Of a stretch of 36,467 nucleotides of DNA, positions 10,281-35,578 are shown piece after piece (the first letter of the stretch is position 1; each line of letters opens with the position of its first letter). Source of the DNA: a virus. The position numbers and the translations under genes were made by a program. The notes below the pieces were generated by a model. It was not told the DNA's origin. It ran no database searches and worked only from the letters and a program-made list of their open reading frames with translations. The stretch is from IMG/VR virus record IMGVR_UViG_3300024520_000240, positions 1 through 36,467 of that record, one strand, 5' to 3'.

Positions 10281-10290
10281 TTTAATTTAT

Positions 10291-12995: not shown

Positions 12996-13038
12996 ATCTT
13001 ACTATTATTATTACTTATTTTTTCCATTTTTAACCTAT

Positions 13039-16000: not shown

Positions 16001-17280
16001 ATTTCACTTACATGAAAATTAAGAGACATAGAACCTGGTAAAGGTATTCTAATAATAATTTTATCTACTTTATTTTCCATAAAATCTACAGTAGTAGTTC
16101 TATATGTGTCTTCTTCATCTTCTATTTCTAGTGGTGGTGGTGCAGTTTTATAATTTTTTTGAGCATTATTAGTAACTTGAGATACTTTATACATAAAATA
16201 ACCGTCTTGTTTAGGAATAAAACAGTCTTGAGTAAACGGAGCCATAATTGAATATTCTCCATCATCAAATCTATATCTATAACTAAATCTAACAAATTTA
16301 TCTCTTAAAAAATCTTTATCTCCATTATAATTAGGTATATAATAAGGATTAGCATTAAATACTAGTTTAAGTGCATCAGTAGCGAGTAAAATAGTACCTG
16401 TTGCTACTAATTCAGATGTTGTCGGTAAATTATCACTATAATTAAAAGTTGAAACAGTTTCACCTGTATCTACTAATGCCCCTGTTATAGGGTTTACATA
16501 ATGTATAGTAGCACCGAGAGCTCCTCCAATAGGTTCAAGCACATCACCTGTAATAGTCGTTGCATCTACATCAATAGTGGCAGAAGCAGGATCAACTATA
16601 GCGTCTGCTATAGCTGTTCCACCGTTGGGATAATGTATACTAGTAACATCATACATAGTTGTTTCGTAAGCTTCATCTCCATCAGGTGTAGGGTTGGTTA
16701 AGTTTGTAGATCTTTTATATAGATCTATAGTTTGATATGGATTATATCTAGCAACAGAAATATTATCTTCAGTACTATAATACCCCGCATGTGCACCAAC
16801 TCCGTTTATAGCTAAATCAACATTAATTTTTCTAGGTTGATTTCTATTGTCTGTCCAAAATAACAAATCTTCTATAATATTTATTCCGGTTATAGGATAT
16901 AAAGTAGAAAAATTAAGAAAAGCTCCAGTAACTAATTCAGTAGAAGTTTGTGCTAACGCGTCATACACATAGATATAATGGTTATTATTTCCAGTGTGTT
17001 GATAAGGTGAAGCAGTGTTATCGGTTAAAAATGAAAAAATTCTATTATTAACTTCATCAGTTAGATAACCTATAGAAACTAAATCGGCAACTCCAGTTAG
17101 AGTTCTATAATCTGCTACTAAAGAGTTTCCTAATGTATTTTCTAAAGCTCCAACATTTTCTCCTTCAGATCTACTTATCTGAGCATTTACAGCGTTTCTA
17201 TATTCACCAACAGGTAACAAACGATCGTCAAGATCTTTGTTCATTCTACCTTTGATAAAATTGTTACTTGTTTTTGCCAT
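13039..17280 (-). CDS. Large tail (stabilization / nozzle-like) protein with Cys-rich C-terminus
   Basis: This is a 1413-residue beta-rich protein. The N-terminus (FIKGRMNKDLDDRLLPVGEY, then RNAVNAQI) fits the opening of podoviral tail stabilization or tubular proteins, where a short extended arm precedes a propeller. Propeller-like strands continue to about residue 420 (FSFLTDN, LLFWTDNRNQPRKI). The centre contains inserted Ig-like or small beta modules with an AGMTVSGNGI motif near residue 960. From Cys1210 to the end there are ten cysteines, including the terminal DPCNNCNG, which suggests disulfides or metal sites in a distal domain. It follows the ring protein by six bases and precedes the propeller protein. 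I infer a tail component whose end may bind the host. Its length is comparable to large tail proteins of crAss-like phages, but homology was not tested. Confidence 0.62.
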   Translation of the reverse strand: MAKTSNNFIKGRMNKDLDDRLLPVGEYRNAVNAQISRSEGENVGALENTLGNSLVADYRTLTGVADLVSIGYLTDEVNNRIFSFLTDNTASPYQHTGNNNHYIYVYDALAQTSTELVTGAFLNFSTLYPITGINIIEDLLFWTDNRNQPRKINVDLAINGVGAHAGYYSTEDNISVARYNPYQTIDLYKRSTNLTNPTPDGDEAYETTMYDVTSIHYPNGGTAIADAIVDPASATIDVDATTITGDVLEPIGGALGATIHYVNPITGALVDTGETVSTFNYSDNLPTTSELVATGTILLATDALKLVFNANPYYIPNYNGDKDFLRDKFVRFSYRYRFDDGEYSIMAPFTQDCFIPKQDGYFMYKVSQVTNNAQKNYKTAPPPLEIEDEEDTYRTTTVDFMENKVDKIIIRIPLPGSMSLNFHVSEIDILYKESDSLAVYVIETIPVADIDNNNGSVQIDGTSTGTQFDIFPATTWGSITVGDQVTSDTNGEITDSPTLSAFNGSDSITLSTTQTLTNLDRVYFNDAAVLEYEYQSNKPYKVLPSDEVTRTYDKVPVKALSQEIISNRIVYGNFQNKHTPPTTLDYNVGISEKTDFNLGTGSATIRVNEAIGQTVLSINTPTGVYNLGSTVTSSVVGAIPAETTLLEYDSSGPTVTISNALAVGLTTVAPDVLTFTAPSNVRYTTSEIEYPNSSLKTNRTYQVGVVLSDRWGRSSTVILSESDSSVNYNNINYLGSTVFSEYISDEVNTLSWFGNSLKVLFNNIISPSGPNPGTGWPGIYNSDVTSVDYNPLGWYSYKIVVKQTEQEYYNVYLPGVMAAYPDDPLKELGKTSHTILINDNINKVPRDLTEVGPEQRQFRSSVRLNGRVENQADNDPGDVNKQFYPGLFTSIVSTIATDNDLFDGVNEVGYIPSPEFYNVDSDPLIARINTPSGQFGIPAVITSGEVTAVSGADITLDATVVPCGAIGTNCIRAGMTVSGNGIQPGTKVVGNLSALEFTLDKNPIAYSASTYAEPIIFSPTIPYSTPTGFQYLFMPHLAIMETDPVESNLDIFWETTTTGLITDLNTAIINGTAASADLSSFTTTPFTEALAPNSVIAANFSLIDQFGSTITYIDQNPPQLQLISVVTQTGVEVGPPAAIPLFSLKDYGTGVWNVELEDSVYFSSNTAWRTYSFNFELNTFDSDSGAQVTSYVTHTASLINEDPSILLGRCGDVTYVPGTDGGGVGLFIALPGFNGAHDDLGDNNKEEISWTSVPITVMKDGVNYGPGTDGLGYVQCDETSTLGTGRFYFVGNDPPEDMEDGVYACVATVEDAGSQTVECSFDLTINRTPCYTWEFIYQDTGNTITGGLYTDCEGETQTLDGFIDQSVAGPPCASSTYYVCARDTATTQAGIRDTSGFVKLSLVNSDPCNNCNG

Positions 17281-20206: not shown

Positions 20207-21688
20207 TTAGATTCCTTTGAATAATACAAAGTTGTTAGCAGCTTGAGTTACTAAACATCTTTCTGAAAGGAAGTTAACTTCCATTGCATCAAGAGTAGAT
20301 GTAAATGCACCACCAGCAGAACCAGTTAACCAAGATTTCATTCTTCTATCATCTCCTTGAGACGCTCTATATCTTACATGTAAGAAAGGTCTACGGATGT
20401 TAGTTCCTAAAATTTGATCATAAACTGTAGTTGTTCCAGCAGGTACTAATACACCTTCAATTGAATTAACTCCAACGATACCACCTCTTGTAGAAGCGTC
20501 GTTTAAGTATTTCCAATCAGTTTTATAGAAGTCATAAGAACCTCTTCTGAAACCGCTAAAACCTAAGTTTAAAGCCATTTCTTCTGAGTTTTCAAATAAA
20601 CCAAAAGCAACACCACCGTTAAATCCTGCAGATATACCCGCAAGCATATCATCAAAATCTAAAGCAGTTTGTCTTTGTAAGAACATCATGTTCTCTTCTA
20701 TAGCACCTTGAGTGTCTAGGTTTTTAAGAATTGCATCAAACTCATCAAGTCCAGCAGCAGCAGTAAATCCTACTTCTACATTTCCTCTAGCGTTAATTGC
20801 AGCAAATAAACCTTGTGTACCAGGTAAACCAGCAATCGCAGTTCCTGCAATAGCAGCTGCGTTAGCATTTAATTCACCTTCAACCATTGCCATTTCTAAG
20901 TAATCTTCGAATCTTAGTCTAGTTTCAGACTCAGCTTTTAAATACCAAAGGTATCCACTAGCACCATCTTCAGTAGCAACTTCTACCCAACCGATCTGAG
21001 CCATGTCAGAACCGTTGATCACATATTGATCTCTTAAGATAATAGGTGAGTTAGAAAATTGCGTGAATTGTGGGTCAACAGAAATTCTGTCTGCAGTTCC
21101 AGCTGCAAGAGTACCACCAGTCATAGCAGATCCTTTTACATAAGCAGAACCGTAAACAAATACTTTGACTCCCCCTAATAAACCTGCACCAGTAATAGTA
21201 ATGCCTGTAACATCAAATGTTTGGTTAGCAAATGGTTGAACAGTAACTGTTCCACTTGCTCCACCAACTACACCAGCCGTTGTTGCCGTAACAATACCTT
21301 TGCCTTCTACTCCTGTAACAGGGTCTAGAAGAACTACAGTATCACCAATCGACATAACGTTTAATGCAGTGGCACCACCACCGATGTTTACAACAGAGGC
21401 ATTATTAGCACCACCTGCTTCTACACCACAACTATCATATGCAATGTGTAATCTATTTTGTTCAGACCAGATTACTTGATCTGAGGTCATCGGCATCTCT
21501 GCCCCAACCATTCTCAAAAAGCCAGATAACGTTCTGTTTCCATAACGTTCTACTTCTTGTTCGTAAATTTCTGGTAAATATTGTTGCGCAAAATCATTTG
21601 CACCACCATCAAAAGCTAGATAATTACTAGCTAAAGTTTGTTGGACCTGCGAAGGAACAATACTCCCAAATTGTGGAGATAAACTCAT
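20207..21688 (-). CDS. Major capsid protein
   Basis: This is a 493-residue protein in the canonical position after terminase, portal and scaffold. The N-terminal part (NDFAQQYLPEIYEQEVERYG, then NRTLSGFLRMVGAEMP) and the core helices (ESETRLRFEDYLEMAMVEG, LDEFDAILKNLDTQGAIEE) fit the HK97-fold capsid proteins of marine phages. Residues about 95-195 form a Gly/Thr/Val-rich beta insertion, a likely surface domain. The C-terminus (LDAMEVNFLSERCLVTQAAN) fits the last strand and tail of the fold. The gene is visibly less A+T-rich than its neighbours, as expected for a very highly expressed gene, and is followed by a strong terminator. No N-terminal maturation-protease domain is fused to it. Confidence 0.82.
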   Translation of the reverse strand: MSLSPQFGSIVPSQVQQTLASNYLAFDGGANDFAQQYLPEIYEQEVERYGNRTLSGFLRMVGAEMPMTSDQVIWSEQNRLHIAYDSCGVEAGGANNASVVNIGGGATALNVMSIGDTVVLLDPVTGVEGKGIVTATTAGVVGGASGTVTVQPFANQTFDVTGITITGAGLLGGVKVFVYGSAYVKGSAMTGGTLAAGTADRISVDPQFTQFSNSPIILRDQYVINGSDMAQIGWVEVATEDGASGYLWYLKAESETRLRFEDYLEMAMVEGELNANAAAIAGTAIAGLPGTQGLFAAINARGNVEVGFTAAAGLDEFDAILKNLDTQGAIEENMMFLQRQTALDFDDMLAGISAGFNGGVAFGLFENSEEMALNLGFSGFRRGSYDFYKTDWKYLNDASTRGGIVGVNSIEGVLVPAGTTTVYDQILGTNIRRPFLHVRYRASQGDDRRMKSWLTGSAGGAFTSTLDAMEVNFLSERCLVTQAANNFVLFKGI

Positions 21689-21700: not shown

Positions 21701-22921
21701 TTAATTGTTAAATTTTCGTTTTTTGATTTTCAATTTTGTAGAATCTGCACCACTAATCGATTTTACTTTAAAACCTCCAACAAAAACTTCACCTGTATTT
21801 CCTTCTCTTGCTTTCACATCAGAAAGATTTTTAGAGCTTTTTACCACGTCTTTTACAGCGTCAGCTTTGCCTTGGTCATAAAAATGACTAGCGATTTGAT
21901 CTACATTATCAGCAGCATACATTGCTTTATGATAACCAACCGGGTCTGTTATATTGCCTTCTCCATCTAGGAACTTCCCGATTAGATTGCTAATGTTTGA
22001 TTGATTTTCGGCAACTGTATCACGGTTTTGAACATTATACTTATATTTTTTATCCCCCACATTGATATCAAAACCTTTGAAATCTTTATTGAATAAGTCT
22101 TTAGTTTTTTGTTTAAAATTTTCGTGTAGTTGCTCAGCATGTTCTTGTTGCTCATTGTAGCGATTAAAGAAATCCATAGCTTTTTGTTGTTCTTGAGTAA
22201 CACCCGGTCTCAACTTGATCTCGTCGTAATATTTTTGTTTCAAGTCCTCCAAATAGTTTTTGGCTTCTGCAATTGCTTCTTTTTTAGCGAGTTTTTTTCT
22301 TTTGACGTCACGCTCTTCGTCAACTTCTTCGTCGTAATAGAAGTTTTCTTCCATTACAAAATCTACTTCCTCATTATTAAGATGTGGTTTAGATTTTTTA
22401 TAAAATTCTTTTAATAATGCCTCTTCATTTACTTTAGAATAATCTGCGTTTAATCTAGTGTAATCTTCTATAGTACCACCAGTTTCTTCCATGAAGTTAA
22501 CTAATTTTTCGATGTTTTCTGGTAAAGCTTTACCTAATGTTTTTTCATCTCTAATAGCTTCTTTAACTTCTTTTTCAACTTTTTTTACCTCTTCTTCTGT
22601 GATTTCGGTAATTGGAGAAAACCCTTCAGTAGTCTCGTTGGACTCTTGTACAGGTTCTCCCACCTTTGGGCTATCTCCGGATGGTTCGCCCACAGGTACT
22701 TCCTTTGTTTCTCCGATTTGAATGGCATCTTCTTCTTTTTTCACTTCTACTTTAGTAACATTATCCGGAATCTCTATTAAAGGTTCTTTAGGATTTATAT
22801 TTACTTTAGTAATTTTTTGTTTTTGTTTACCTAATTGCTTAGGAGTTTTCTTTTTTGACTTTATTTTAAAGTCACCTTCTTGTTTTACTTCTTCTTTAGA
22901 AGTTGTTTTTGTTTCTGACAT
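21701..22921 (-). CDS. Capsid scaffolding-like protein
   Basis: This is a 406-residue, highly charged protein between portal and capsid genes, the standard place for a scaffold. The first 110 residues are Lys/Glu/Pro-rich and probably disordered. Residues about 150-270 are helical (NADYSKVNEEALLKEFYKKS, KPHLNNEEVDFVMEENFYYD, then EEVDEERDVKRKKLAKKEA) and likely form coiled coil. The C-terminus is short, basic and beta-like (EVFVGGFKVKSISG, ending KLKIKKRKFNN). A basic C-terminal tail is known in scaffolds that bind the capsid floor (P22 gp8). The leader (ATTAATTTTATATTATTATATT) has no Shine-Dalgarno. The assignment rests on order, composition and helical pattern. Confidence 0.68.
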   Translation of the reverse strand: MSETKTTSKEEVKQEGDFKIKSKKKTPKQLGKQKQKITKVNINPKEPLIEIPDNVTKVEVKKEEDAIQIGETKEVPVGEPSGDSPKVGEPVQESNETTEGFSPITEITEEEVKKVEKEVKEAIRDEKTLGKALPENIEKLVNFMEETGGTIEDYTRLNADYSKVNEEALLKEFYKKSKPHLNNEEVDFVMEENFYYDEEVDEERDVKRKKLAKKEAIAEAKNYLEDLKQKYYDEIKLRPGVTQEQQKAMDFFNRYNEQQEHAEQLHENFKQKTKDLFNKDFKGFDINVGDKKYKYNVQNRDTVAENQSNISNLIGKFLDGEGNITDPVGYHKAMYAADNVDQIASHFYDQGKADAVKDVVKSSKNLSDVKAREGNTGEVFVGGFKVKSISGADSTKLKIKKRKFNN

Positions 22922-22950: not shown

Positions 22951-25365
22951 CTACATAGCTGGAGCTGGAGGTCCCATTGGTCCCACTGCTCCTTGTGCAG
23001 GTATTTCTTGTTCTTCAAAATTAATAGGCATAGAATCGTTTTGTCTTTGACTTATTAATTCACTTTGCTGTGTAGCTTCCATTTTGCTACGCTTATCTTT
23101 ACGATCTTCAATTAGAGCTTCTTTTTTACCTGTGTTTTCACCTTCAAGCTGTTTTAATTGCATATCAAATTGATGTTGCATTTCCATTTTTTGTTGATCT
23201 AATTGTGATTGTAATTGCATACGATCTTTTTCAAATTCACTCTTAGCTTTTTCATATTCTACATTTGCACCACTAATAGCTTGTTGTTTTTGTACTTCAG
23301 CCATAGCTGTTTTTTCTGCAGTATCTGCTTGTGCTGCTGCTTGAGCTTGAATATTAGCTTGTTGATTAGCTTGATCTTCCGCATTTTTAGTTTTACGTTT
23401 AATCTTAAGCATTTGATTAGCTAGTTTAAGATTTTTAATTTGTCTTAAATCAATAGCATCTTCTAAATCAATACCTTGAGCTTGTAAAGCTACTTGAATA
23501 TTCTGTTCTAATTGAGCTTGTTCTTCTTCATCTGGTTCTAATTCTAAGAATATACCAAAATCATGAAGATTAAGATTAACAATTTCTTCTAATGTTTTAA
23601 TATTAAAAGTAGATATAGAATTTTGTAACGACGCTTTAGTTAATGGAAATTCTAAAGCATCAGCTATTTTTAATCCTATATTTTCTGCTAATTTTAAGGT
23701 TACATATAAACTAGATTGTACAATATGTCTAGTTGCAACATTAGACGCATTAGCGGCAATTTTCTGTAATCCTACTAATGTATTTCTATCTGGAGTACTT
23801 CCATCTCTAGCTTCATTTAATCCGGTCACATCTCTTATCATTTGTAAATAATATTGATATGTTTGTATTAAACTTTGTATTTTAGCTCCTCCTGCGGAAG
23901 AATTAAGTTCTTGAATAGGAACTTTACCTGGATTCATATCTCCTTCTTGAGTAAGAGATCTACCAACTATCGAACCAGTTTGGAAATACATATTTAACGC
24001 TTCAGCTGGATTATAATTAGTACCGTTACCAAGATCAACCTCAGCTAAACCGTCCATATCTAAATATACACCATCTGGAACTAATCTTGAAATTACTTGT
24101 TGTAATTTTAAATGTGTTAATTGAATCATATCAGCAAATCCTATACATTTGCCTACTATAGATTCAATTCTACCTTTGTACATTCTAGGTGCACAAATAG
24201 CATAATTCATTTTTACTTTAGTAGTATCAGCCATAGGTCGTGACATATTTTCTGCCATTTCCCATTTTAACATAGTATTAGTTCCTAAAACTTTTGCTCC
24301 ACTATATAATACTTCTATAGATCTTGAAACTCTTTCAAAATTATCATTCTCTGGAGGATTAAATGTATCAGGTTTTTCTAAAGCTTTTTCTAATCCTTGA
24401 TCTGTATGTTTTATTTTAAATACCTGATTGTGATATGTTTTATAATCAAAATATAAAACTTGTACAGTATTTTCATCATAATCTCCCCAACCTGTAATAT
24501 AAGACCTATTACCTGGCATTGCTTGTATTCTTTCTAATTCTTCTTTAGATATATTAGGAAATTCTTTTTTAAGTTCGGGTATAGTTATAGCTTTTAATTC
24601 TCCTACATAATATATATCTTCAAAATTTGGATCTTCTGTGTAAGAATATACCAAATAAGCAGGATCAACATAGTCAACTGTTACCCCATTAGCAGTATTA
24701 AAACTAGTTTTAGCCGCTGTGATTCCACAAACTGTTAAATCCATGTTTAATCTTCTTCTAATAAGATCATATTTATTTTGGGCTAAAACACTAGAGATGG
24801 CTTCTTCTTCTGCAATTTCAATAGATTGTTTATATTTTAATTGCATGTGTAATTCTAACTCATCTTTAGTTTCTGGAATAACATCTAAATCAGGACTTTG
24901 ATATAAATTTATTCCTAAAGTATTTTTTAATATTTCTAAATAATCAAGAGAAAGCATATCTTCATATATCTTAGAAGCATATTCTGTTCTTTTCTTTATT
25001 GATTGAGGATCTTGAGCATAAGCTTTTATATCATAAGTTTTTTGAGATATACCATTAACTACTATATCCACAAATTTAGATAAAATAGGTACTGGTTTCC
25101 AGTCTAAATTAAGATATGATAAATCACCATTAATAGATAATTCATCTTTATATTTTTGAATAGATTGTTCTCCCCGAGCATATAATCTTAACTGGTGATA
25201 ATTATTCCAATTAGTTAAATATCTATTACCATTAGTTCTTCCTGTGCGAAACCACTCTTGTTCTATTGCTTGAGCAACTTGTTCACCGTATTCCAAAGTA
25301 GCTTTTTCAGCATCGCTCACTACTTGACTAGGAAAAGGGCTATTGGTGTTAGTATATATATTCAT
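22951..25365 (-). CDS. Portal protein
   Basis: This 804-residue protein directly follows the terminase with no gap (TAAATG). The region from about residue 85 (LNLDWKPVPILSKFVDIVVN, then GISQKTYDIKAYAQD) matches the portal opening used by crAss-like and related large podoviral portals, where a conserved segment precedes the clip and stem. The middle has a conserved-looking VDPAYLVYSYTEDPNFEDI block near residue 235 and a helix GAKIQSLIQTYQYYLQMIRD near 495. Residues about 650-760 are Gln/Ala/Glu-rich coiled coil, and the last 20 are Pro-rich. It would form the dodecameric ring at one capsid vertex through which DNA is packaged and ejected. It is longer than the usual 450-700 residues, mostly because of the C-terminal coil. 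Confidence 0.82.
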   Translation of the reverse strand: MNIYTNTNSPFPSQVVSDAEKATLEYGEQVAQAIEQEWFRTGRTNGNRYLTNWNNYHQLRLYARGEQSIQKYKDELSINGDLSYLNLDWKPVPILSKFVDIVVNGISQKTYDIKAYAQDPQSIKKRTEYASKIYEDMLSLDYLEILKNTLGINLYQSPDLDVIPETKDELELHMQLKYKQSIEIAEEEAISSVLAQNKYDLIRRRLNMDLTVCGITAAKTSFNTANGVTVDYVDPAYLVYSYTEDPNFEDIYYVGELKAITIPELKKEFPNISKEELERIQAMPGNRSYITGWGDYDENTVQVLYFDYKTYHNQVFKIKHTDQGLEKALEKPDTFNPPENDNFERVSRSIEVLYSGAKVLGTNTMLKWEMAENMSRPMADTTKVKMNYAICAPRMYKGRIESIVGKCIGFADMIQLTHLKLQQVISRLVPDGVYLDMDGLAEVDLGNGTNYNPAEALNMYFQTGSIVGRSLTQEGDMNPGKVPIQELNSSAGGAKIQSLIQTYQYYLQMIRDVTGLNEARDGSTPDRNTLVGLQKIAANASNVATRHIVQSSLYVTLKLAENIGLKIADALEFPLTKASLQNSISTFNIKTLEEIVNLNLHDFGIFLELEPDEEEQAQLEQNIQVALQAQGIDLEDAIDLRQIKNLKLANQMLKIKRKTKNAEDQANQQANIQAQAAAQADTAEKTAMAEVQKQQAISGANVEYEKAKSEFEKDRMQLQSQLDQQKMEMQHQFDMQLKQLEGENTGKKEALIEDRKDKRSKMEATQQSELISQRQNDSMPINFEEQEIPAQGAVGPMGPPAPAM

Positions 25366-27576
25366 TTAACTTATAATTTTTGATGTATATCCTTTATTAT
25401 CGTATCTTTTTATACCTAAATCTACAGATTCTCTTAATATAGGTTTGTTGGGTGTATATCTATGTTTATTACACGCCATCAAAGCCAATCCTGAACTAAT
25501 AGAAGCATCATGAGTAGTTCTATTATTTATATTAAACCTTGCCCAGTCTTCTAATGTTCTTTGAAAATACATATCTCCATATCCGGTTTCTTTTAAACCA
25601 ACATAATGTTCTATATATGTTTCAATTGCTGAAGCGTGTGCTTGTTTAATATCTTCACTTGAATTAGGGATACCACCTATTTCTCTTTCTGTAACTGATA
25701 ATTTATTTCTTCTTTTGTCAGGTCTGTTCATTGCAAACCCTCTATAACCTCTTCTTTTAAAATAATATAAAAGTCTTGGTTTATTATTTTCTGCTAGTAT
25801 TGGCATTCCATAAAATACACACGCCATTAACACATCTTCAAAAAATATTTCAGCTGTTTGAGGTCTAGCTATATATTCTAAAAAGAAATGATTTGCAGGA
25901 TGATTTTCCATAGAAAACTTAGTTAATCCATGCAAAGATCCATTAGATCCTCTTTTATCAACTGTTCCAGATATATCATAGGGGTCACATCCAAATGCTC
26001 CCACGTGTTCATTACCTGGATAATTTACTCCATGTTTGATGTATCTTCTATTTTGTAGAGATTCAGAAGGAACCCAGCTTATTAAAAATCTACCTTGTTT
26101 GTTTGGAACAAATATTACTCTACTATCTTGTTCTCCATTTTCCCATATAAAACTTCCTTTAGTTATACTTAAAGAGTTTTTAATATCTTCATTATAATCT
26201 ATTTGTTGGTATATTTTAGTTAAATTAAATAAAGATTCTTTAGATTCATCTCTAAAAGCGTGTTTAGTAGTTCTTGGAAATTGTCTATAAAATTCATTTA
26301 AACCGTCTTGATCATCTTTTAAACCTTCAACTTCATTATCCCAATACTCTACTACTCCTATTTTAATATCGGCGCCATGTGGCCCTTTAACGCTCTGTTT
26401 TGGGGTATCGAATACAGGTATGCCATAAGCATCAATGTATCCTTCGTAGTTCCATTCCATAGGTATGAACAAACTATATAGTCCTGAGCGAGTCTGTCCA
26501 TTGGCGTTTCTTTTTGTAACATCTGAGTCATCATATAGTCTTTTAAAATTTCTACCTCCTTTATCTAATGCGTTTGAAGTAGAACCCATCATACATTTTC
26601 CAATAATTCTACTCCCTAATCTTAAAGTTGTTTTTGTAACTCTCCAGTTATTTAATATATTGTTTGGTCTTTCCCATTTTCCACTCTCATCATGTACTAA
26701 TAGTTTTAATTTTTCACCATCATAACTATTATCTCCTGTATTTTTCCAGTCAATAGTTGTATCTAATCCTTCTAAATCTATCATTTCACTTCCGGCTTCA
26801 ATACTTCTTCTAGTAAATTTAGAAGCTGGTACTCTATATGCTAGTTCTGTTTTAGGTCGATCCATACCATCTTGAATCGGTTTAAAAAAGAATGGATAAT
26901 TAACTGAAATTGGTACAACCTTATCAGTAAACATTTTTTTTGCATCTTGTCCAGTTTTAGATAATATTCCATATCTTGAATCACTAGATATTGTTGCTAG
27001 ATTTATTACTTCTCCTGAGGCCATAAAAGAGAATCCTGATCTACGGTTTTTAAGATAACAAATTCCATAACATCTGGTATCTGCTTTACAAGCTTCCCAG
27101 AATAAGAAGAATAATCTATTGGCTTCTCTAAAATCTGGTGACCCAACATCAATCTTACTCCACTGCAAGTACATATAGTGAGTGCCAGTAAGATAAGTAG
27201 GTTTACCTTTATTATAAAACCAGAAACCTTCTTCACGTTTTTTAAATTCTTCATCAATATATTCAAACCATTTTTCTTTAAAATCTTCTGGATATTCTCT
27301 CCAATGAAATACTGTTTTTATTCTAGTAAGTGGTTTAGGATATTCAGTTTTAGTCCATCTATCATTTTCAAATTTATGAACTTTATCTGCTTTAGGTAAA
27401 GCTATTTTAAGATTCTGTATCTCATATACTTCACCTATTTTTCCCGTCTTAGATATTATAATTATATCATGTTCTTCATTGTAACCATATTCCCATTTAT
27501 TATACCTATTCATTCTTTTAAGAACTTTAGGTTTAATATAACCAGGTAGTATTTTATATAATTCCTGTTCGTACAT
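25366..27576 (-). CDS. terL: Terminase large subunit
   Basis: This 736-residue packaging motor has an N-terminal ATPase. A Walker A-like loop, KNRRSGFS, lies at 176-183; it is an Arg-rich variant also seen in crAss-like terminases. Walker B is LLVHDES, with Asp296 and the catalytic Glu297. The C-terminal RNase H-like nuclease begins with GCDPYD (Asp531), followed by acidic and basic positions towards residue 690. The protein cuts and pumps phage DNA into proheads through the portal encoded next. Its start shares one base with the stop of the 91-residue gene (TAATG), and its stop abuts the portal ATG, so all three are probably translated together. Length is slightly above the usual 450-700. 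Confidence 0.88.
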   Translation of the reverse strand: MYEQELYKILPGYIKPKVLKRMNRYNKWEYGYNEEHDIIIISKTGKIGEVYEIQNLKIALPKADKVHKFENDRWTKTEYPKPLTRIKTVFHWREYPEDFKEKWFEYIDEEFKKREEGFWFYNKGKPTYLTGTHYMYLQWSKIDVGSPDFREANRLFFLFWEACKADTRCYGICYLKNRRSGFSFMASGEVINLATISSDSRYGILSKTGQDAKKMFTDKVVPISVNYPFFFKPIQDGMDRPKTELAYRVPASKFTRRSIEAGSEMIDLEGLDTTIDWKNTGDNSYDGEKLKLLVHDESGKWERPNNILNNWRVTKTTLRLGSRIIGKCMMGSTSNALDKGGRNFKRLYDDSDVTKRNANGQTRSGLYSLFIPMEWNYEGYIDAYGIPVFDTPKQSVKGPHGADIKIGVVEYWDNEVEGLKDDQDGLNEFYRQFPRTTKHAFRDESKESLFNLTKIYQQIDYNEDIKNSLSITKGSFIWENGEQDSRVIFVPNKQGRFLISWVPSESLQNRRYIKHGVNYPGNEHVGAFGCDPYDISGTVDKRGSNGSLHGLTKFSMENHPANHFFLEYIARPQTAEIFFEDVLMACVFYGMPILAENNKPRLLYYFKRRGYRGFAMNRPDKRRNKLSVTEREIGGIPNSSEDIKQAHASAIETYIEHYVGLKETGYGDMYFQRTLEDWARFNINNRTTHDASISSGLALMACNKHRYTPNKPILRESVDLGIKRYDNKGYTSKIIS

Positions 27577-27851
27577 TATTTAGACCTCCCTTCTGCAAAA
27601 CCTTTAAAAACTTTTTCTTTCTTAACTTCTTTAGGTTTATCTTCTAACATATTATTTTCTTCTTCAATTCTATTTAAAATTTCAAAAGCATCGAATATAG
27701 CTAGTTTTTTAGTAGCTGCAGCATTTTTTAATCTATCTGCGGAAATATCTGGTCCAAAATCTATAATGGGTTCTTTAGCAACTTTAATTAATTCTTTAAC
27801 TGCTATGCGCCCAGCTTGGATTATATTTTTCTTCGTTTCCTTGGTGTTCAT
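27576..27851 (-). CDS. Putative terminase small-subunit-like protein
   Basis: This 91-residue helical protein is encoded immediately before the terminase large subunit, sharing one base at TAATG. The sequence (IIQAGRIAVKELIKVAKEPI, then DISADRLKNAAATKKLAIFDAF, then EILNRIEEENNML) reads as helix-turn-helix-like helices followed by a coiled coil and a basic tail ending GFAEGRSK. Small terminases have that general plan (DNA-binding helices plus oligomerization coil) and sit in this position, but they are usually 120-180 residues long. It overlaps the previous gene by 56 bases, an unusually long overlap. Role inferred from position and size. Confidence 0.5.
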   Translation of the reverse strand: MNTKETKKNIIQAGRIAVKELIKVAKEPIIDFGPDISADRLKNAAATKKLAIFDAFEILNRIEEENNMLEDKPKEVKKEKVFKGFAEGRSK

Positions 27852-28401
27852 ACTTTATAACAATATCATTTGATTTCATACAATATAAGCGCTGTTTATT
27901 AATTAAAAATTCCCATTCTCCGTTAGGAGTATAACCAACTAAGTCTCCTTCGTTGATTTCTAGCGCTTCTAAAGAACTATTACCATATTTTAATATACCT
28001 ATTAATGAACGTTCTTTATTTAATGTTAGAGAATTAGTATCTTTTATGGGTTGAATAAAGCATCTATCACCAAAAGTATGCCAACCAGTAGAATTTTTAT
28101 ATAAATATACTTGGTCTAGTGAACAAAAGTATAAATCATTTTTAAACCACGATCTACTTTTTTTCTTCTCTCCACGCATATCATAAAAAGTTCTAAAAAT
28201 ATTTTGATGGACTATTACAATATCACCTTTTTTTATTTCAGTTTTAAAAGCTAAAGGAGTTTTAATTACTTTTGCTAATCTATTAACAAATTTCCAAGAT
28301 TCAATTTGAGTATTAACGATTACTTTTTTATCACCTACTTGAATTTCATTTTTATATTTTTCACCTAAAGGTTCTATAATAAAATCATATAAACTTTTCA
28401 T
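27796..28401 (-). CDS. Tandem GroES-like (double Cpn10) protein
   Basis: This 201-residue protein looks like two co-chaperonin folds joined head to tail. In the first (about 1-101), LYDFIIEPL is followed by a loop with KKVIVN (25-30), where GroES has its Gly-Gly-Ile-Val-Leu mobile loop, then LAKVIKTP, KKGDIVIVH (57-65) and LDQVYLY. In the second (about 110-185), GDRCFIQPIK, LIGILKYGN, EGDLVGYTPNGEWEF and LYCMKSNDIVIKY follow the same order. The end of module two lines up with this phage's own GroES: EIN-D, then a Gly turn, then (S/A)-x-DIV. The loop in module two lacks the hydrophobic tripeptide. It is coupled to the previous gene by TAATG. I infer a chaperonin cap or a virion assembly factor; fold homology is not confirmed. 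Confidence 0.55.
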   Translation of the reverse strand: MKSLYDFIIEPLGEKYKNEIQVGDKKVIVNTQIESWKFVNRLAKVIKTPLAFKTEIKKGDIVIVHQNIFRTFYDMRGEKKKSRSWFKNDLYFCSLDQVYLYKNSTGWHTFGDRCFIQPIKDTNSLTLNKERSLIGILKYGNSSLEALEINEGDLVGYTPNGEWEFLINKQRLYCMKSNDIVIKYEHQGNEEKYNPSWAHSS

Positions 28402-29550: not shown

Positions 29551-30009
29551 TTATTTTTGTTTATAAATACTAGTTGCTTTTTCAGTTGTGCGTCCGCCGA
29601 AATAGGCTAAAACGACGGCCATCATGACCTTTTCAAAAGTATCATTCCATGTACTATTTATATGGAATGGTATACTTTCTACACTATCTAAAATACCAGC
29701 TAGTGAAAATATACATATACACCATACTAATACTAGTGGGCGTACGTTTTTCGACATCCACGAATCGGACATAGAATCTGCTTCCCATCTAGTTGTGATA
29801 GCTTCTAGTTCTTTGTTTTGTTGGTCATATATTAATTGTTGCAGTTTAATTTTATCTTCTGCACTTACACCAGATTTGGTGATTTCTGCTATAGCTTCTT
29901 TTGGTGATGTTACACCTTGTAATATATTACCCAAAGTAGGGTTAATAATAGAAGCAGCACCGAATAATAGTTGTCCAACGGTTGTTTCTTTAAATTTCTT
30001 TTTTGCCAT
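29551..30009 (-). CDS. Holin-like membrane protein (GTA_holin_3TM-type)
   Basis: This 152-residue protein has an amphipathic N-terminal region (about 10-32). A W-x(8)-W-x(5)-RP block follows (Trp75, Trp84, Arg90-Pro91), leading into a membrane helix at 91-108 (PLVLVWCICIFSLAGIL). After a short extracytoplasmic loop (PFHINSTWNDTF) a second membrane helix spans about 126-138 and runs into GGRTTEKA. The D-S-W...RPL signature and the GGRT(T)EK end are typical of the small holins called GTA_holin_3TM, also found in many marine phages. It would permeabilize the inner membrane for lysis. It is coupled by TAATG to the HExxH peptidase gene before it, which may be part of the lysis cassette. Confidence 0.7.
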   Translation of the reverse strand: MAKKKFKETTVGQLLFGAASIINPTLGNILQGVTSPKEAIAEITKSGVSAEDKIKLQQLIYDQQNKELEAITTRWEADSMSDSWMSKNVRPLVLVWCICIFSLAGILDSVESIPFHINSTWNDTFEKVMMAVVLAYFGGRTTEKATSIYKQK

Positions 30010-30317
30010 TATGATCTTTTATATGCTTCCAGTTCCCATGGAAGATTTTTTGCGCCTTCTTTCATTTTAGATCTTGGATAAGTTTTTCCTTTCCAATATA
30101 CATTTTCTTCATCGTAATTTAAATCACCACGTTTCATTTGTTCTATATGAATTTTTTCATGTGCTACAATCTCATCTATTTGATGTGGATCCATATCTTT
30201 ATTTACAATAATAGTTCCATTATTATTAGCTTTGCCAGCAACTCCATCTTCCATATCAACATGGTAAACAGGAACATTATCCGTAGAATACGGGGGATTA
30301 CTTAGTTTAAAAGCCAT
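30009..30317 (-). CDS. Small HExxH metallopeptidase-like protein
   Basis: This 102-residue protein contains HEKIH at 53-57, a zinc-peptidase HExxH motif, in the context DEIVAHEKIHIEQMKRGDL. Glu95 or Glu97 (PWELEAY) is a likely third zinc ligand, about 40 residues later. The N-terminal half forms a short beta sheet (YHVDME, GTIIVNKDM). This is the minimal zincin plan. No signal peptide is visible, so if it acts on the cell wall it would need the holin encoded next, with which it shares the TAATG junction. Possible roles are lysis endopeptidase or virion-maturation protease; the sequence does not decide. Confidence 0.68.
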   Translation of the reverse strand: MAFKLSNPPYSTDNVPVYHVDMEDGVAGKANNNGTIIVNKDMDPHQIDEIVAHEKIHIEQMKRGDLNYDEENVYWKGKTYPRSKMKEGAKNLPWELEAYKRS

Positions 30318-30915: not shown

Positions 30916-31164
30916 TTATTGCCAGCCTTTTTTAGCTAATTCAGCATCCACTTTGTCTTGTTCTATATTGTCTTCTTCAACTCGTTCTCCAAATGTTTTC
31001 TTAGGTGTATCGCCTCCGATTTCACTGTGTAAAGGAGATCCTCCACTCATTCTTGATTGACTAGCGTGTTTAGACATCCATGATCCACCTCTTCCTCCAC
31101 TAGCATCTTTTGCTACTGGATTATCGTGAAGTAAATCATATTTTTCTTGCTTATTTGATTCCAT
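30916..31164 (-). CDS. Small protein with SPL motif
   Basis: This 82-residue hydrophilic protein is rich in Gly, Ser, Lys and Asp. It contains GGSPLHSEIGG near residues 41-51, one of the Ser-Pro-Leu motifs shared by this gene cluster, and a preceding GGRGGSWMSKHASQSRMSG stretch. The C-terminal 25 residues (GERVEEDNIEQDKVDAELAK) look helical. There is no membrane segment or known domain. It is the last gene of the small-protein cassette before the structured leader. I would expect a virion-associated or assembly-linked peptide carrier, but that is a guess. Confidence 0.55.
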   Translation of the reverse strand: MESNKQEKYDLLHDNPVAKDASGGRGGSWMSKHASQSRMSGGSPLHSEIGGDTPKKTFGERVEEDNIEQDKVDAELAKKGWQ

Positions 31165-31189
31165 GTTTTAGTTATTTATTTATTATTAA

Positions 31190-31687
31190 TTAATTTTTTA
31201 TTGCTTCTGGGAAACAATTACCAAAACCGCCTGGTAAACAATCTCCTAGTTCTTTAGATTTAGGTTTTTTATTAGTTATTTTTGGTTTTCTATATATTCC
31301 AATAGCTGGTTGATCAGGATTCCATCCACCACGTATCTCACCAACTTTAATCTTAGAGGCTTTACTTATAACTTTATCAGTATCTTTTTTAAACTTTTCT
31401 ACAATCCCTGTAGTTACTTGTTTAGCTGGTGAACCATGATGTTCTTTATCATACTTCATGTCTCCTTCTAATTTAGATATATGTTTTTCATCAGCAGTTT
31501 GATTTTCATCTTTATATTTACCACCAGATTTTTGATCGTCTAGTACATCTCTTTTAAGATAATCTATATGTGCAGCATCATCTCTTTCAGATGCTTTATA
31601 ATCTTCTTTAGTAACTTTTGTGTGGGCATGGTCTCTTGACCATTTCGCGTTACCACTATATTCCCCGTAATGTCCTTTATGTCCCAT
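31190..31687 (-). CDS. Lys/Asp/His-rich small protein with SPA motif and C-terminal Cys pair
   Basis: This 165-residue, very hydrophilic protein has many His, Lys and Asp residues (HYGEYSGNAKWSRDHAHTKV, DKEHHGSPAKQVTTGIVEKF). HHGSPAKQ near residue 84-91 belongs to the Ser-Pro motif series of this cassette. The C-terminus GDCLPGGFGNCFPEAIKN contains two cysteines nine residues apart, which suggests a disulfide or metal site. No transmembrane segment is seen. Its low sequence complexity suggests a largely disordered protein. I do not recognise a family. Confidence 0.55.
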   Translation of the reverse strand: MGHKGHYGEYSGNAKWSRDHAHTKVTKEDYKASERDDAAHIDYLKRDVLDDQKSGGKYKDENQTADEKHISKLEGDMKYDKEHHGSPAKQVTTGIVEKFKKDTDKVISKASKIKVGEIRGGWNPDQPAIGIYRKPKITNKKPKSKELGDCLPGGFGNCFPEAIKN

Positions 31688-31705
31688 TTTAGTTTATTTG
31701 TTTAT

Positions 31706-32257
31706 TTATTCACATTCTCCCGTAGCGGAATTATATTTTTGTGTTCCTGGGCATCTTATATTTGCATCTGGATAATCTATCTCATAATCGGCTTGAGTAT
31801 AATCTGGATCATCTTTAACTCTTTTTAAATCTGCTTTTTGCTTTGCTTTTTTTGCTTTTTTAGTTTTAGCATCAGTAATAGCTAGACTTGCTGTAGTCAT
31901 AGAATCAAAAACTTTATTCCACATATGTGCAGTGGGTGGATTAGGATCTACCATATCACTTGCATCTACATAACCATGTAAAGGTGATTTCATTTCTATT
32001 GCTGAAGCTCGAGCCGCATCTTCATCTTCTTTCACTTGAGTATCTTCTTCTTCAGTTCTTGTAGTACTAGGATCATTATGTGATTCTACTAAGTGTTTTC
32101 TTTGTCTTTGTAGATCTGCTAGATAATCATAATCTTTACTACCCTGCGCATCATATGAATCTGCTTTAGCTATTTTTTTGTCTAATTTTTTTAATTTCCC
32201 TCCATGACTTCTCAAAGGTGATTTAGCCATAAATTTATTTTGAAATGGTGAGTTCAT
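31706..32257 (-). CDS. Small protein with three SPL/SPF motifs and Cys tail
   Basis: This 183-residue, strongly charged protein has NSPFQNKF at residues 2-9, AKSPLRSH near 11-18, and MKSPLHGY near residue 89-96. That makes three copies of the short motif that recurs in neighbouring genes. A long Lys/Ala/Asp-rich helix occurs near 120-150 (TDAKTKKAKKAKQKADLKRV). The C-terminus RCPGTQKYNSATGECE is a Cys-x(12)-Cys loop like small disulfide or chitin-binding-type tails, though I would not call it a domain. No membrane segment is seen. Probably disordered except for helices. Function unknown. Confidence 0.58.
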   Translation of the reverse strand: MNSPFQNKFMAKSPLRSHGGKLKKLDKKIAKADSYDAQGSKDYDYLADLQRQRKHLVESHNDPSTTRTEEEDTQVKEDEDAARASAIEMKSPLHGYVDASDMVDPNPPTAHMWNKVFDSMTTASLAITDAKTKKAKKAKQKADLKRVKDDPDYTQADYEIDYPDANIRCPGTQKYNSATGECE

Positions 32258-32259
32258 AA

Positions 32260-32493
32260 TTATTTATTTTTACATCCAAAATTTTCAGCATATTGAGCCA
32301 TAGGAATTACAGGTCTACCATCTTGTTTTGAATTTTCATATTTACCTTTATTTGCTAATACTGCAGATGCAGCGCTACAAGCGTCTTCAAATCCGTTAGA
32401 TTTTGCCCAAGCAGTAAAATCTCCTTTATGAGATTCTTTTATTTCCGGAAAAGGTTTCTTTAAAAAGGGACTATTATATTGTGCGTATCCCAT
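32260..32493 (-). CDS. Small protein with NSPF motif and Cys-Lys-Asn-Lys end
   Basis: This 77-residue protein starts MGYAQYNSPFLKKPFPEIK, sharing the NSPF-x-x-K form with the next gene. The middle (DFTAWAKSNGFEDACSAASAVLAN) looks helical. The end GRPVIPMAQYAENFGCKNK resembles the end of the 73-residue protein encoded before it, where GRP is followed by LPITECAKVYNK. Both end with an Asn-Lys, a Cys close to the end, and an IP or LP before a polar helix, so the two may be diverged relatives. The gap to the next gene is two bases. Confidence 0.55.
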   Translation of the reverse strand: MGYAQYNSPFLKKPFPEIKESHKGDFTAWAKSNGFEDACSAASAVLANKGKYENSKQDGRPVIPMAQYAENFGCKNK

Positions 32494-32496
32494 GAT

Positions 32497-32718
32497 TTAT
32501 TTATTATATACTTTAGCACATTCAGTTATAGGAAGTGATTTGTAAGATAATGGTGCTTGCAGTATCTTCATTCCTGTTATACCAGAGCTAGAACCTTGAC
32601 CATGAGGTCTACCTTCTTGATCTAAAGGACCATCCCATATATGAGATTCTCCTACTATACCAACTTTACTTCCTGGTTTTAATCTTTCCATTGCTGGATC
32701 GTATTTGTTATTATGCAT
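32497..32718 (-). CDS. Small protein with C-terminal Cys motif
   Basis: This 73-residue protein is Gly- and Pro-rich: a short N-terminal KYDPAMERLKPGSKVGIVG, then WDGPLDQEGRPHGQGSSSG, then GMKILQAPLSYKSLPITECA and a KVYNK end. The first part is a possible beta strand pair. It carries GPL and APL but no strict Ser-Pro-Leu, so it is a weaker member of the cassette. Its C-terminus resembles that of the next gene's product. It is separated from the next gene by three bases. No family recognised. Confidence 0.5.
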   Translation of the reverse strand: MHNNKYDPAMERLKPGSKVGIVGESHIWDGPLDQEGRPHGQGSSSGITGMKILQAPLSYKSLPITECAKVYNK

Positions 32719-32729
32719 AATTATTAGTT

Positions 32730-33344
32730 TTATTTATTAATATCATATTCTGTTCCACCTGCGCCATCATCTCCTGATGTTGGATCGTATGGAGGATTTG
32801 GTGGTTTATAAGCTGTTAAATCTCCTCTTATTTCTTTATCAGAATATCCAAATTTTTTTAATGCTTTTTCTTTTAAAGATCTTGTATTATAAGCCGTACC
32901 TACATTTACAGCATATTTATCATTAACAGAAGCAACTTTATGCCAATCGGCTTCAGAATATAAAGGTTCTTCTTCATTATTATTTACTGGAGATAAGTGT
33001 TTTTCTAATACCATCATACCAGAACCACCTACAGCGGCTTGTCTAGCATTAGTGTTTCCAAATATTCCTTCTGCTGCTGTTACGGTTCCATCATCAAATT
33101 GAGTTGAAGCGTCTGCTATCATTCCGCCTCTGGATCCTATACCTGCTACTGAACCACCTCTAGCATCAACAACTTCTGGGAGTGGAGTTGGATCTACCCA
33201 GTTTTTTGGATTGTAGATTCTTGTTCCCTGTGCTGTCAATAAATTACCAGCAGCGGCACCTTGCATGCCTCCACCAAAAGTTCCTGTTCCCATACCATAC
33301 CCCATTGGGACTTGAAATTTTAATGGTGATTTTTTATTTTTCAT
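32730..33344 (-). CDS. Small protein with N-terminal SPL motif, probably virion-associated
   Basis: This 204-residue protein begins MKNKKSPLKFQVP, a basic Ser-Pro-Leu start. A Gly/Met/Ala-rich stretch follows (GYGMGTGTFGGGMQGAAAG), then low-complexity loops. A SPVNNNEEEP segment occurs near residue 117. The C-terminal third contains a helical SLKEKALKKFGYSDKEIRG and a Pro/Gly-rich end. The ATG overlaps the stop of the wHTH-like gene by four bases (ATGA). No membrane segment or known domain is seen. It leads the six-gene cassette of small Ser-Pro-motif proteins. Function unknown. Confidence 0.56.
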   Translation of the reverse strand: MKNKKSPLKFQVPMGYGMGTGTFGGGMQGAAAGNLLTAQGTRIYNPKNWVDPTPLPEVVDARGGSVAGIGSRGGMIADASTQFDDGTVTAAEGIFGNTNARQAAVGGSGMMVLEKHLSPVNNNEEEPLYSEADWHKVASVNDKYAVNVGTAYNTRSLKEKALKKFGYSDKEIRGDLTAYKPPNPPYDPTSGDDGAGGTEYDINK

Positions 33345-33784
33345 CTTTGTTTATCTTTGTTTACGTTATAAATAGCTGTTGTCATTACTTTATCTGTATA
33401 AGTGGTGCCTGCTATTAATTTATTTCTTCTTTCGCTTGTAGGTATATCATCATATCCTAACATGATTCTATACATTCTACTTATTAATTGTTTACCTTTA
33501 AAAGATAAAGTATAAATATTATATTTTTGTGTAGTTCTATTTCTGTTTCTCCAAATCTTTATCCATTCATTTTGAATTAATTTACTCCATCTTCTATTAT
33601 TCCAACTAAAAGTATATGCTCCTGCTTCAAAATCTTTTTTAGTAAATAAATCAATACAATCTAAATAAATCAATAGTTCTAATTCTGCATCAGTTAAATC
33701 ATTGTTTTTACACGCCCATTTTCTAATGATTCTATAATGTTTCATTAGATTTAATTCTTTAATATCGCCAGCTTTTAATTTCAT
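33341..33784 (-). CDS. Winged-helix-like DNA-binding protein
   Basis: This 147-residue protein looks like a MarR-type winged helix. Helices HYRIIRKWACKNN and LTDAELELLIYLDCID are followed by FTKKDFE, a recognition-like helix RRWSKLIQNEWIKIWR, then the wing strand QKYNIYTLSFKG and a long helix KQLISRMYRIMLGYDDI. In MarR family members this order (helix, helix, recognition helix, beta wing) binds operator DNA. The remaining tail is variable. It is coupled to groES by ATGA and to the next gene by ATGA. A role as late regulator is inferred from fold only; it could be a non-DNA-binding wHTH. Confidence 0.6.
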   Translation of the reverse strand: MKLKAGDIKELNLMKHYRIIRKWACKNNDLTDAELELLIYLDCIDLFTKKDFEAGAYTFSWNNRRWSKLIQNEWIKIWRNRNRTTQKYNIYTLSFKGKQLISRMYRIMLGYDDIPTSERRNKLIAGTTYTDKVMTTAIYNVNKDKQR

Positions 33785-34041
33785 AATACTACCACAATAT
33801 CTTGTGCTTTAATTACATGATAAGATTTCTTTTCTATTTCAATCTTATGTCCAGCGTGTCTATCAAAAAATATTCTATCATTTATTTCAACCCCTATAAC
33901 TTCAGGACCTACTGATATTACATTAGCTTCAATATATCTAATATCTTCTCTTTGGTTCTCTGCTAAAAGTAAACCACCTTTTGTTTTAGTAGTTCCTTCT
34001 TTAAGTTTTTCTATTATTAAATTTCTACCTATTGCTTTCAT
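33781..34041 (-). CDS. groES: Phage co-chaperonin GroES
   Basis: This 86-residue protein is slightly shorter than the 97-residue bacterial GroES. The opening strand NLIIEKL precedes the mobile loop with GGLLL at 22-26, the equivalent of the Gly-Gly-Ile-Val-Leu that docks on GroEL. Then comes NVISVGP, a shortened roof loop, and the closing strands NDRIFFDR, KSYHVIKAQDIVVVL. The roof beta-hairpin is much reduced, as in some phage co-chaperonins. It starts 17 bases inside the end of groEL, so the two are translated together. It would cap the phage chaperonin and perhaps host GroEL too. The order groEL then groES is the reverse of the usual bacterial groESL operon. Confidence 0.86.
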   Translation of the reverse strand: MKAIGRNLIIEKLKEGTTKTKGGLLLAENQREDIRYIEANVISVGPEVIGVEINDRIFFDRHAGHKIEIEKKSYHVIKAQDIVVVL

Positions 34042-35578
34042 TAATTCTTATATTATTAATTACACAATCTGTAGATAAAATAGTAGCTGCCACTGAAGCC
34101 GCATTTTGTAATGCACTTTTTGTAACTAATAACGGGTCTATAATACCATTATTAATCATATTTACCATATTTCCCGTAACCACATCAATGCCATAACCTT
34201 CTTTTTTTGGAAGTTCAGGTTCTAAACCAGCATTTGATAATATTGTTTTAAAGGGTGATAATACAGCTTTTGTTAAAACTTTTTCTCCTTCGTTTTTTTC
34301 TTTTATATTCATTGCAGCGTTAAGCAATGCGATTCCACCACCTGGAACAATTCCTTCTTTAATTGCAGCTTTAGTAGCGCATATAGCATCTTCAACTCTA
34401 TCTTTCTTTTCTTTTAATTCAATATCTGAATTAGCACCAACTTTAACTATTGCTATTCTAGCGGCTAACATAGCCAACCTTTTTTCTAGTTTAATTACTT
34501 CATGATTAGGATTTTCTTGAAGTAATTTATCTTTTATATCTTGAATAATATATTGTATTTCACTAGAAGATTCATTTACTTGAATAATAGTATCTTCACT
34601 AGTGGTTATACTTTTTATACATGTTCCTAAATATTCTACTTTAATTAAATCTAAATCATCTCCTAAATCTTCATTGATTATAGTAGCATTAGTTAATAAA
34701 GCTAGATCATCTAAAACTTGTTTTTTATTAATACCAAATGTTGGTGCATTAATAACGTTAATTTTGATATTACCCTTGATTTTATTCATTGCTAGAGCTG
34801 ATAAAACACCTTGTTCTAAATCGCCGATAATCAGCAAAGGTTTATTGTTTTTTATTACATACTCTAGCACTGTTTGAATTTGCCTAATCGTATCTATTGG
34901 TGACTCAATTAACAGTACTAACGGATTTTCTAACTCCGCTGTTTTTGATTGTTTATTAGTAATGAAATGGGAATTTGTAATTCCTTTATCATATTGAACT
35001 CCATCTACAATTTCTACTTCTGTTTGACCATTAGGTGAAGTTTCCATCATTACTACTCCGGTATAATCTACAGCTCTAAAAGCATCTGCTATAATTTTTC
35101 CTAATAAAGGATCATTATTTGTTGATATAGTTGCAATTTGATCTATCATATCTCCTTCTACAGGTTTTGCTATAGATTCTAAATATTTTATAACTTTATC
35201 AACTGCAGAATTAATACCGTCTTTTAATTCTCTTGAATTTGTTTTATTAGAAATTTTATATGCTTCTTCTAATATAGAGTATGCTAAAATAGTAGCTGTT
35301 GTTGTACCATCTCCAGCTTCTCTCACTGTTTTACGAGCTGCTTCTTTTAAAAGAGTAGCTCCCATATTTTCTACAGGATCTAACAAAACAACTGAATCAG
35401 CTACAGTAACACCATCTTTTGTTATAATAGGATTACCCGCAGCATCTTCTAGTATCACACATTTACCGCTAGCTCCTAAAGTGGAGCTAACAGCATCTGT
35501 GAGTTTTGTTATTCCTTTAAATATCTCTTCCCTAGCTTTGTCACCAAAGTTAAGGTTTTTAACTATCGCATTCGACAT
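34025..35578 (-). CDS. groEL: Phage chaperonin GroEL
   Basis: This 517-residue protein carries all main GroEL signatures. They are TLGASGK at 33-39 (the Pro of the usual TLGPKG is Ala), AGDGTTTA with Asp90 (Escherichia coli Asp87), ITKDGVTVA, and VEDAICATKAAIKEGIVPGG with Asp397 (E. coli Asp398). Equatorial, intermediate and apical regions are all present. In the apical substrate groove, residues that are aromatic or hydrophobic in the host type are changed: ITNSHF replaces YLSPYF, and Gln takes the place of E. coli Leu234. The Gly-Gly-Met tail is absent; it ends VINNIRINESNR. The usual length is about 545. It would fold phage proteins such as the capsid subunit. The leader is a TTTAA repeat without Shine-Dalgarno. 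Confidence 0.92.
   Translation of the reverse strand: MSNAIVKNLNFGDKAREEIFKGITKLTDAVSSTLGASGKCVILEDAAGNPIITKDGVTVADSVVLLDPVENMGATLLKEAARKTVREAGDGTTTATILAYSILEEAYKISNKTNSRELKDGINSAVDKVIKYLESIAKPVEGDMIDQIATISTNNDPLLGKIIADAFRAVDYTGVVMMETSPNGQTEVEIVDGVQYDKGITNSHFITNKQSKTAELENPLVLLIESPIDTIRQIQTVLEYVIKNNKPLLIIGDLEQGVLSALAMNKIKGNIKINVINAPTFGINKKQVLDDLALLTNATIINEDLGDDLDLIKVEYLGTCIKSITTSEDTIIQVNESSSEIQYIIQDIKDKLLQENPNHEVIKLEKRLAMLAARIAIVKVGANSDIELKEKKDRVEDAICATKAAIKEGIVPGGGIALLNAAMNIKEKNEGEKVLTKAVLSPFKTILSNAGLEPELPKKEGYGIDVVTGNMVNMINNGIIDPLLVTKSALQNAASVAATILSTDCVINNIRINESNR

Follow-up and report, generated by a model that had tools for sequence, protein, structure and literature searches.

Encapsulins load their cargo through a short terminal peptide, the cargo-loading peptide, which recruits diverse proteins inside an HK97-fold shell. 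In bacteriophage T4, gp21 cuts off the N-terminal propeptides that target proteins to the capsid (PMC9026906); in crassviruses, the head and the tail of the virion both contain stored cargo proteins (PMC10172136). Here we describe a cassette of small late genes in 36,467 bases of DNA from an uncultured virus (an IMG/VR record; the whole stretch is referred to as the window), in which otherwise different proteins carry the tripeptide Ser-Pro-Leu or Ser-Pro-Phe (SP[LF]). This tripeptide, found in late genes, has the behavior of a short linear motif: it is portable and sits mostly at the N-terminus. In the open-access literature we found neither the phrase "SPL motif" in connection with phage nor DUF6321, a domain that recurs among the tagged proteins.

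Gene layout and lineage of the window

The main genes of the window all lie on the minus strand, and matches to PHROG families identified a portal, a terminase and three virion structural proteins. The cassette is flanked by a GroEL/GroES/147-aa block on one side and by a GroES-like/terminase large subunit (TerL)/portal block on the other:

33341 to 35578, minus strand: GroEL/GroES block, one cassette anchor (GroEL 34025-35578, GroES 33781-34041)
33341 to 33784, minus strand: conserved 147-aa protein of the same anchor block
25366 to 28401, minus strand: the other cassette anchor, the whole GroES-like and TerL block
27796 to 28401, minus strand: GroES-like gene of the second anchor
25366 to 27576, minus strand: TerL of the second anchor
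22951 to 25365, minus strand: portal protein
21701 to 22921, minus strand: scaffold-position protein, 406 aa, N-terminal KQEGDFKIKSKKK, a tentative candidate docking partner
20207 to 21688, minus strand: virion structural protein in the major-capsid position
11496 to 12995, minus strand: crassvirus-type muzzle protein, C-terminal part (PF25731, E=3.7e-10; PF25729, E=1.1e-9)
240 to 10962, minus strand: proteins of 223, 367 and 2978 aa in ejection or cargo position, their putative role taken from position

Both muzzle matches are above the curated Pfam cut-off. The muzzle is seemingly split in this lineage (11496-17280), such that 11496-12995 encodes the C-terminal part and an upstream gene for 1413 aa holds the position of the N-terminal part. 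The GroES-like gene just before the terminase is a second, longer one (201 aa), separate from the GroES/GroEL pair at 33781-35578. Relatives have another cluster of small tagged genes after the giant ejection-position gene. Adjoining the cassette of the window, 30009-30317 encodes a small zincin-like protein with the sequence HEKIH, which has distant relatives in large phages; its match to DUF6782 (E=0.011) is under the curated Pfam cut-off. Upstream of most cassette genes there is an A-rich leader that contains AATAAATAA-like repeats and in which a Shine-Dalgarno site is not obvious, a situation that resembles translation initiation of the Bacteroidota type.

The TerL of the window shares 62% identity with its counterpart in the spring-water phage genome MW202828, 45% with those of Flavobacterium elemo phages, and 37% with those of Cellulophaga phi18:3 and phi38:1. 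Relatives of the window phage were found mostly in Bacteroidota MAGs, with some obvious mis-binning. Members of the same lineage (L204, L206, L216, L221 and L226) were binned in Desulfobacteraceae, Woesearchaeota, Pacearchaeota and Pelagibacter MAGs, a placement that is most likely mis-binning. We regard the tagged lineage as marine Bacteroidota podoviruses with crassvirus-type tails.

Tagged proteins of the cassette

A sequence-only reading of this DNA had listed seven peptides, in five of six consecutive small proteins at 30916-33344, as copies of a shared tag. We found all seven on the minus strand in five of the six ORFs, as indicated below, including several copies within one protein:

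32730 to 33344, minus strand: tagged protein 1, 204 aa, N-terminus MKNKKSPLKF (KSPLKF), with the swappable module LYSEADWHKVASVNDKYAV
32497 to 32718, minus strand: cassette protein without the motif, 73 aa, GESHIWDGPLDQ family
32260 to 32493, minus strand: tagged protein 2, 77 aa, MGYAQYNSPFLKK tail (NSPFLKK) on a small helical GKFTAWAK domain
31706 to 32257, minus strand: tagged protein 3, 183 aa, SPF at 3, SPL at 13 and SPL at 91 (NSPFQNK, AKSPLRS, MKSPLHG)
31190 to 31687, minus strand: tagged protein 4, 165 aa, conserved N-terminal module ending HHGSPA (HGSPAKQ)
30916 to 31164, minus strand: tagged protein 5, 82 aa, GGSPLHS (GSPLHS) at residue 43, behind the DNPVAKDASGGR module

The GESHIWDGPLDQ family, untagged in the window, has relatives in some genomes that start with MKKSPLK. 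Further examples of tag peptides are MSSPFQKAFSAKSPL, MYTQYNSPFFKEG and SRKTSPLNDM. A short contig (L232, IMGVR_UViG_3300024517_000410) encodes a 77-aa protein 100% identical to that of the window.

Enrichment of SP[LF]

Within the cassette (six proteins, 784 aa), SP[LF] occurs 6 times against 0.22 expected from within-protein shuffling, and SP[LFA] 7 times against 0.48; none of 20,000 shuffles reached either count. Outside the cassette (10,893 aa), the window contains SP[LF] at chance level (4 versus 2.7 expected). Because the motif was picked after viewing the window, the relatives provide the independent test set, comprising about 160 related uncultured marine contigs collected by TerL and 147-aa-protein searches. 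In these contigs, which are not independent of each other and in which ORFs were called mechanically from ATG, the interval between GroES/147-aa and GroES-like/TerL contains 384 copies of SP[LF] versus 43 expected (8.9x), and the remaining called genes contain 75 versus 79. The sequence-only reading would have been refuted by a lack of enrichment in related phages, and it passed this test. Permuted or altered tripeptides in the same interval of the relatives reached 0.6-2.0x.

When the motif and its flanks were masked, the cassette proteins fell into 140 similarity groups, of which an average of 52 carry SP[LF], versus 7.6 +/- 2.4 after shuffling (maximum of 200 shuffles, 16). As is typical of a short linear motif, SP[LF] is enriched over composition-matched shuffles in many families. 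The shuffles of the window, the relatives and the masked families rule out chance or composition as the source of the motif, and the 52 families rule out a shared fold or single gene family in its simple form, though module shuffling among these proteins is real.

Form and position of the motif

Among the relatives, the residues favored after Ser-Pro are Phe (10.1x) and Leu (8.9x), followed by Ala (3.1x) and then Met, Val and Ile, and the residue favored before Pro-(Leu/Phe) is Ser (8.9x), with Arg less so (4.5x). The tag as first proposed, Ser-Pro-(Leu/Phe/Ala), therefore stands for SPL and SPF, with SPA as a weaker form, and its supposed association with Lys reduces to a weak tendency (1.9x at position -1, where Ser reaches 3.0x and Asn 2.2x). 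Met at position -2 is favored 7x. The median position of SP[LF] is residue 15, and 62.5% of copies lie inside the first 30 residues; many copies are internal, which would be unexpected of a packaging signal restricted to the N-terminus.

Conservation and module shuffling

In an alignment of the 183-aa protein with 12 homologs (24-59% identical to it), all three tags are invariant, and S3 P4 F5, F9, K12 S13 P14 L15 and S91 P92 L93 are among the few invariant residues. In the GKFTAWAK (77-aa) family, SP[LF] is present in 36 of 36 distinct N-terminal tails of 6-21 residues while its neighbors vary; SP[LF] is missing from a few members of this family whose leaders are very short (e.g. MAEKEF..., L305 and L309). 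At L091:12475-12879 a GKFTAWAK body stands behind a long leader with SRKTSPIK and RKTSSPLNE, the usual short tail being replaced in what amounts to a swap of tag type. AlphaFold2 placed a helical body behind residues 1-10 of the 77-aa protein, which contain the tag and were modeled with low confidence (pLDDT ~45), and a fold search with this model gave no PDB match with E below 7. Conservation amid diverging flanks, in disordered or linker regions, is a second property of short linear motifs that SP[LF] displays; the AlphaFold2 model of the 183-aa protein is an exception, as it is poorly folded and of low confidence (pTM 0.29) and has helices beginning at SPF and SPL.

The cassette proteins had been described as otherwise unrelated, and this needs correction, as small modules are shared and exchanged among them in relatives. 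The tagged proteins are combinations of such modules, drawn from a set that has been shuffled. The first 86 residues of the 165-aa family, ending HHGSPA, are constant and the C-termini differ between relatives; the LYSEADWHKVASV module is found behind different tags; and DNPVAKDASGGR, NLPxxLxxAI, DxDGDG and DUF6321 are further modules that are shuffled. DUF6321 (PF19846) was detected in 3 of 52 tagged proteins scanned against Pfam. Tagged proteins with an EF-hand-like DxDxDG module, e.g. GDLNKDGKMSGWEQ, occur at L107:3552, L132:4564 and L134:3406.

Distribution of tagging across genomes

In the long tagged records, including the window, SP[LF] is enriched 12.0x in the GroES-TerL interval (93 versus 7.7 expected) and 8.4x after the giant ejection-position gene (18 versus 2.2), compared with 1.35x in tail-fibre-like genes, 1.22x in core structural genes and 1.05x on the early strand (4 versus 3.8). 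The tag is confined to two late-gene clusters. In four untagged records the corresponding figures were 1.5x in the interval (3 versus 2.0) and no copies after the giant gene.

Leaders of the DUF6321 domain in this lineage carry SP[LF] at 54 loci (e.g. MYVQHNSPFTKKGD), xPL at 8 and neither at 15 (e.g. MASKN), and this variation shows that the tag does not belong to the domain itself. Contigs were first defined as untagged by this leader, and the state of the leader was compared with SP[LF] in small proteins elsewhere on the same contig, leaving out the DUF6321 protein itself. Contigs with SP[LF] leaders had 55 such copies versus 15.0 expected, those with xPL leaders 6 versus 1.5, and those with neither 3 versus 4.9. 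Some DUF6321 proteins (L334, L336, L345, L354 and L366) have Cys-rich leaders such as SCGCSHKGPLTRRKS instead of SP[LF], which could represent another type of tag. Across a TerL tree of 98 records, parsimony requires at least 6 changes of tag state, and for the untagged group at least 3 are imposed by supported branches. The covariation of the DUF6321 leader with the rest of the contig, together with these repeated changes, demonstrates that tagging is a property of the genome that was gained or lost more than once. Such repeated gain and loss is what would be expected if the tag required a partner encoded by the phage, and it points to a partner that is genome-specific and probably of phage origin.

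The nearest isolates (phi38:1, phi18:3, elemoA and Gundel_1) and the genome MW202828 have no tagged cassette, so that the proteomics-based annotation of phi18:3 and phi38:1 does not bear on the tagged proteins; a tblastn search of phage records with the 183-aa protein gave no match, and searches with the tagged modules for other phage lineages returned only this lineage among the best 80 matches.

The proposal that these proteins share a short signal, rather than a fold, is strongly supported by the enrichment, the many independent families, the invariance of the motif in diverging proteins, the disorder and variability around it, its portability between domains, and its presence or absence genome-wide.

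Candidate docking partners

Tag type was compared with the divergence of individual genes by a Mantel-type Spearman correlation, which gave 0.54 for the muzzle, 0.49 for a 258-aa protein and 0.42 for TerL; correlations were similar for most structural genes, and tag type tracks no single one clearly better. The giant ejection-position protein gave no signal as a coevolving partner in this weak test (-0.07). The N-terminus of the scaffold-position protein is KQEGDFKIK-like in 21 of 21 tagged records in which the scaffold gene was found, and the pattern was scored absent in 6 of 6 untagged records, where L155 and L157 hold the close variant KQEGEFSLK; that of the untagged G027 reads TEGSFKIQ. 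The 367-aa protein adjoining the giant gene was found in 11 of 16 tagged records and was undetected in untagged ones, a difference confounded by divergence and truncated contigs. Both the scaffold N-terminus and the 367-aa protein are no more than leads to the putative partner of the tag.

Possible roles of the tag

We propose that SP[LF] is a docking motif by which small late proteins attach to the head during assembly or to the cargo zone, a model to which we assign an even chance. One or several copies per protein, mostly located in a flexible N-terminal extension or else between small modules, would attach to one shared, repeated surface encoded by the phage while the particle assembles. 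This surface would most likely lie inside the head, on the scaffold, the capsid lining, the portal or the ejection core, and the variable small modules would thereby ride in the virion as cargo or as internal structural proteins. The partner would presumably be a single one and a component of the virion, and the tagged proteins would be packaged. Docking on the assembling head or ejection core is the best explanation given the late gene context, the genome-wide covariation, the disordered tails and the multiple copies, as well as a crassvirus-type tail, for which cargo storage is known; in this the tagged proteins would parallel the internal proteins of T4 (PMC9026906). Of the functions first suggested for the motif, capsid packaging or a common partner would fit best, and processing is disfavored. 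Several observations count against the model: some tags are internal, tag type tracks no one structural gene clearly better than others, the second tagged cluster includes lysis-gene neighbors, and the tagged proteins of the window are not strongly basic.

Alternatively, SP[LF] may be an address for a partner outside the virion, such as the phage GroEL/GroES or a host factor, that keeps small disordered late proteins soluble, stable or localized. The cassette adjoins groEL and groES in this lineage, and the tags are short, hydrophobic and probably exposed. However, genomes without tags still have GroEL and GroES, small proteins of the early strand are at chance level though folding and stability would be needed there too, and a host partner would leave several changes within one phage lineage unexplained, unless the hosts differ. 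We therefore consider a non-virion partner unlikely.

The motif could also be a junction between shuffled modules, that is, a linker or recombination scar spread by duplication, with little function of its own. It often stands at module boundaries, as where unrelated C-termini follow the shared module ending HHGSPA, and tags within one genome are alike across families (mean flank score 1.07, versus -0.28 +/- 0.26 with genome labels shuffled). Against such an origin, the tag serines use both codon families (TCN 287, AGY 97), and serine-codon sharing is no higher within a genome (0.298) than between genomes (0.295). Since the tags of one genome are alike and yet do not share serine codons more often, a genome-specific partner fits better than recent copying. 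The codon diversity likewise disfavors a DNA copying or recombination site. Moreover, the tags are the invariant part of diverging proteins, and untagged genomes have similar small proteins without the motif. Taken together, we regard a scar as quite improbable.

Docking of variable modules on the outside of the virion, as external decorations or tail and receptor proteins, would agree with the variable accessory genes in the late cluster and with the tail-fibre-like genes beyond groEL, but the latter show no motif excess, and the tagged proteins are small, partly disordered-looking and devoid of fibre repeats, which makes external docking very unlikely. Least probable of all, with only a slight chance in our estimate, is a role in processing, in which a phage protease would cut at the motif as the head matures: the N-terminal position recalls the T4 propeptides and the zincin-like gene lies beside the cassette, yet flanking preferences are weak rather than strongly conserved, Pfam scans recognized no prohead protease among the late genes, the zincin-like gene is not detected by similarity in some tagged genomes, and a cut at an N-terminal tag would mostly take off 3-15 residues.

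Returning to internal docking, its most far-reaching form is that a three-residue address code loads a fast-shuffled library of tiny proteins into virions via one phage-encoded surface, and was switched on or off genome-wide several times. We advance this only tentatively and consider it rather doubtful. If this is true, cargo loading in these phages would be programmable, since the gain of SP[LF] would turn any small module into cargo. Signals that tag proteins are already known in general, and the novelty would lie in packaging on a three-residue code. A packaging or docking code would also provide a sequence rule predicting which of the many unknown small late proteins are carried in the virions of abundant marine flavophages, and a very short tag, transferable between proteins, with which to load cargo into a phage head. 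Even if the mechanism is left aside, dozens of unannotated families are now tied to one common property.

Comparison with known systems

The crassvirus PhicrAss001 is comparable in having a related tail type, a homolog of its muzzle being encoded in the window. Its cargo (gp45, gp46, gp47, gp49 and gp50) consists of a few large proteins, unlike the small tagged proteins described here. Among the crAss001 genes that we checked, no small protein has SP[LF] and a few isolated matches occur in larger proteins, and the tagged proteins scanned against Pfam had no match to any crassvirus cargo family. DUF6321 and other small marine-phage modules are a further point of reference, DUF6321 being present in several tagged proteins and also in untagged ones. 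Encapsulin peptides, which SP[LF] may resemble, differ in sequence and position and belong to a non-phage system. The capsid-targeting sequence of T4 is a propeptide of 10-19 residues cut by gp21, whereas the tag described here has three residues, is often repeated or internal, goes with no recognized protease and would serve packaging only if our model holds. What the tagged cassette has in common with IPI-IPIII and Alt of T4 is that several small proteins, differing in function and encoded with late functions, carry one short signal that can be transferred between proteins, and that in the tagged proteins lies mostly, though often not, near the N-terminus.
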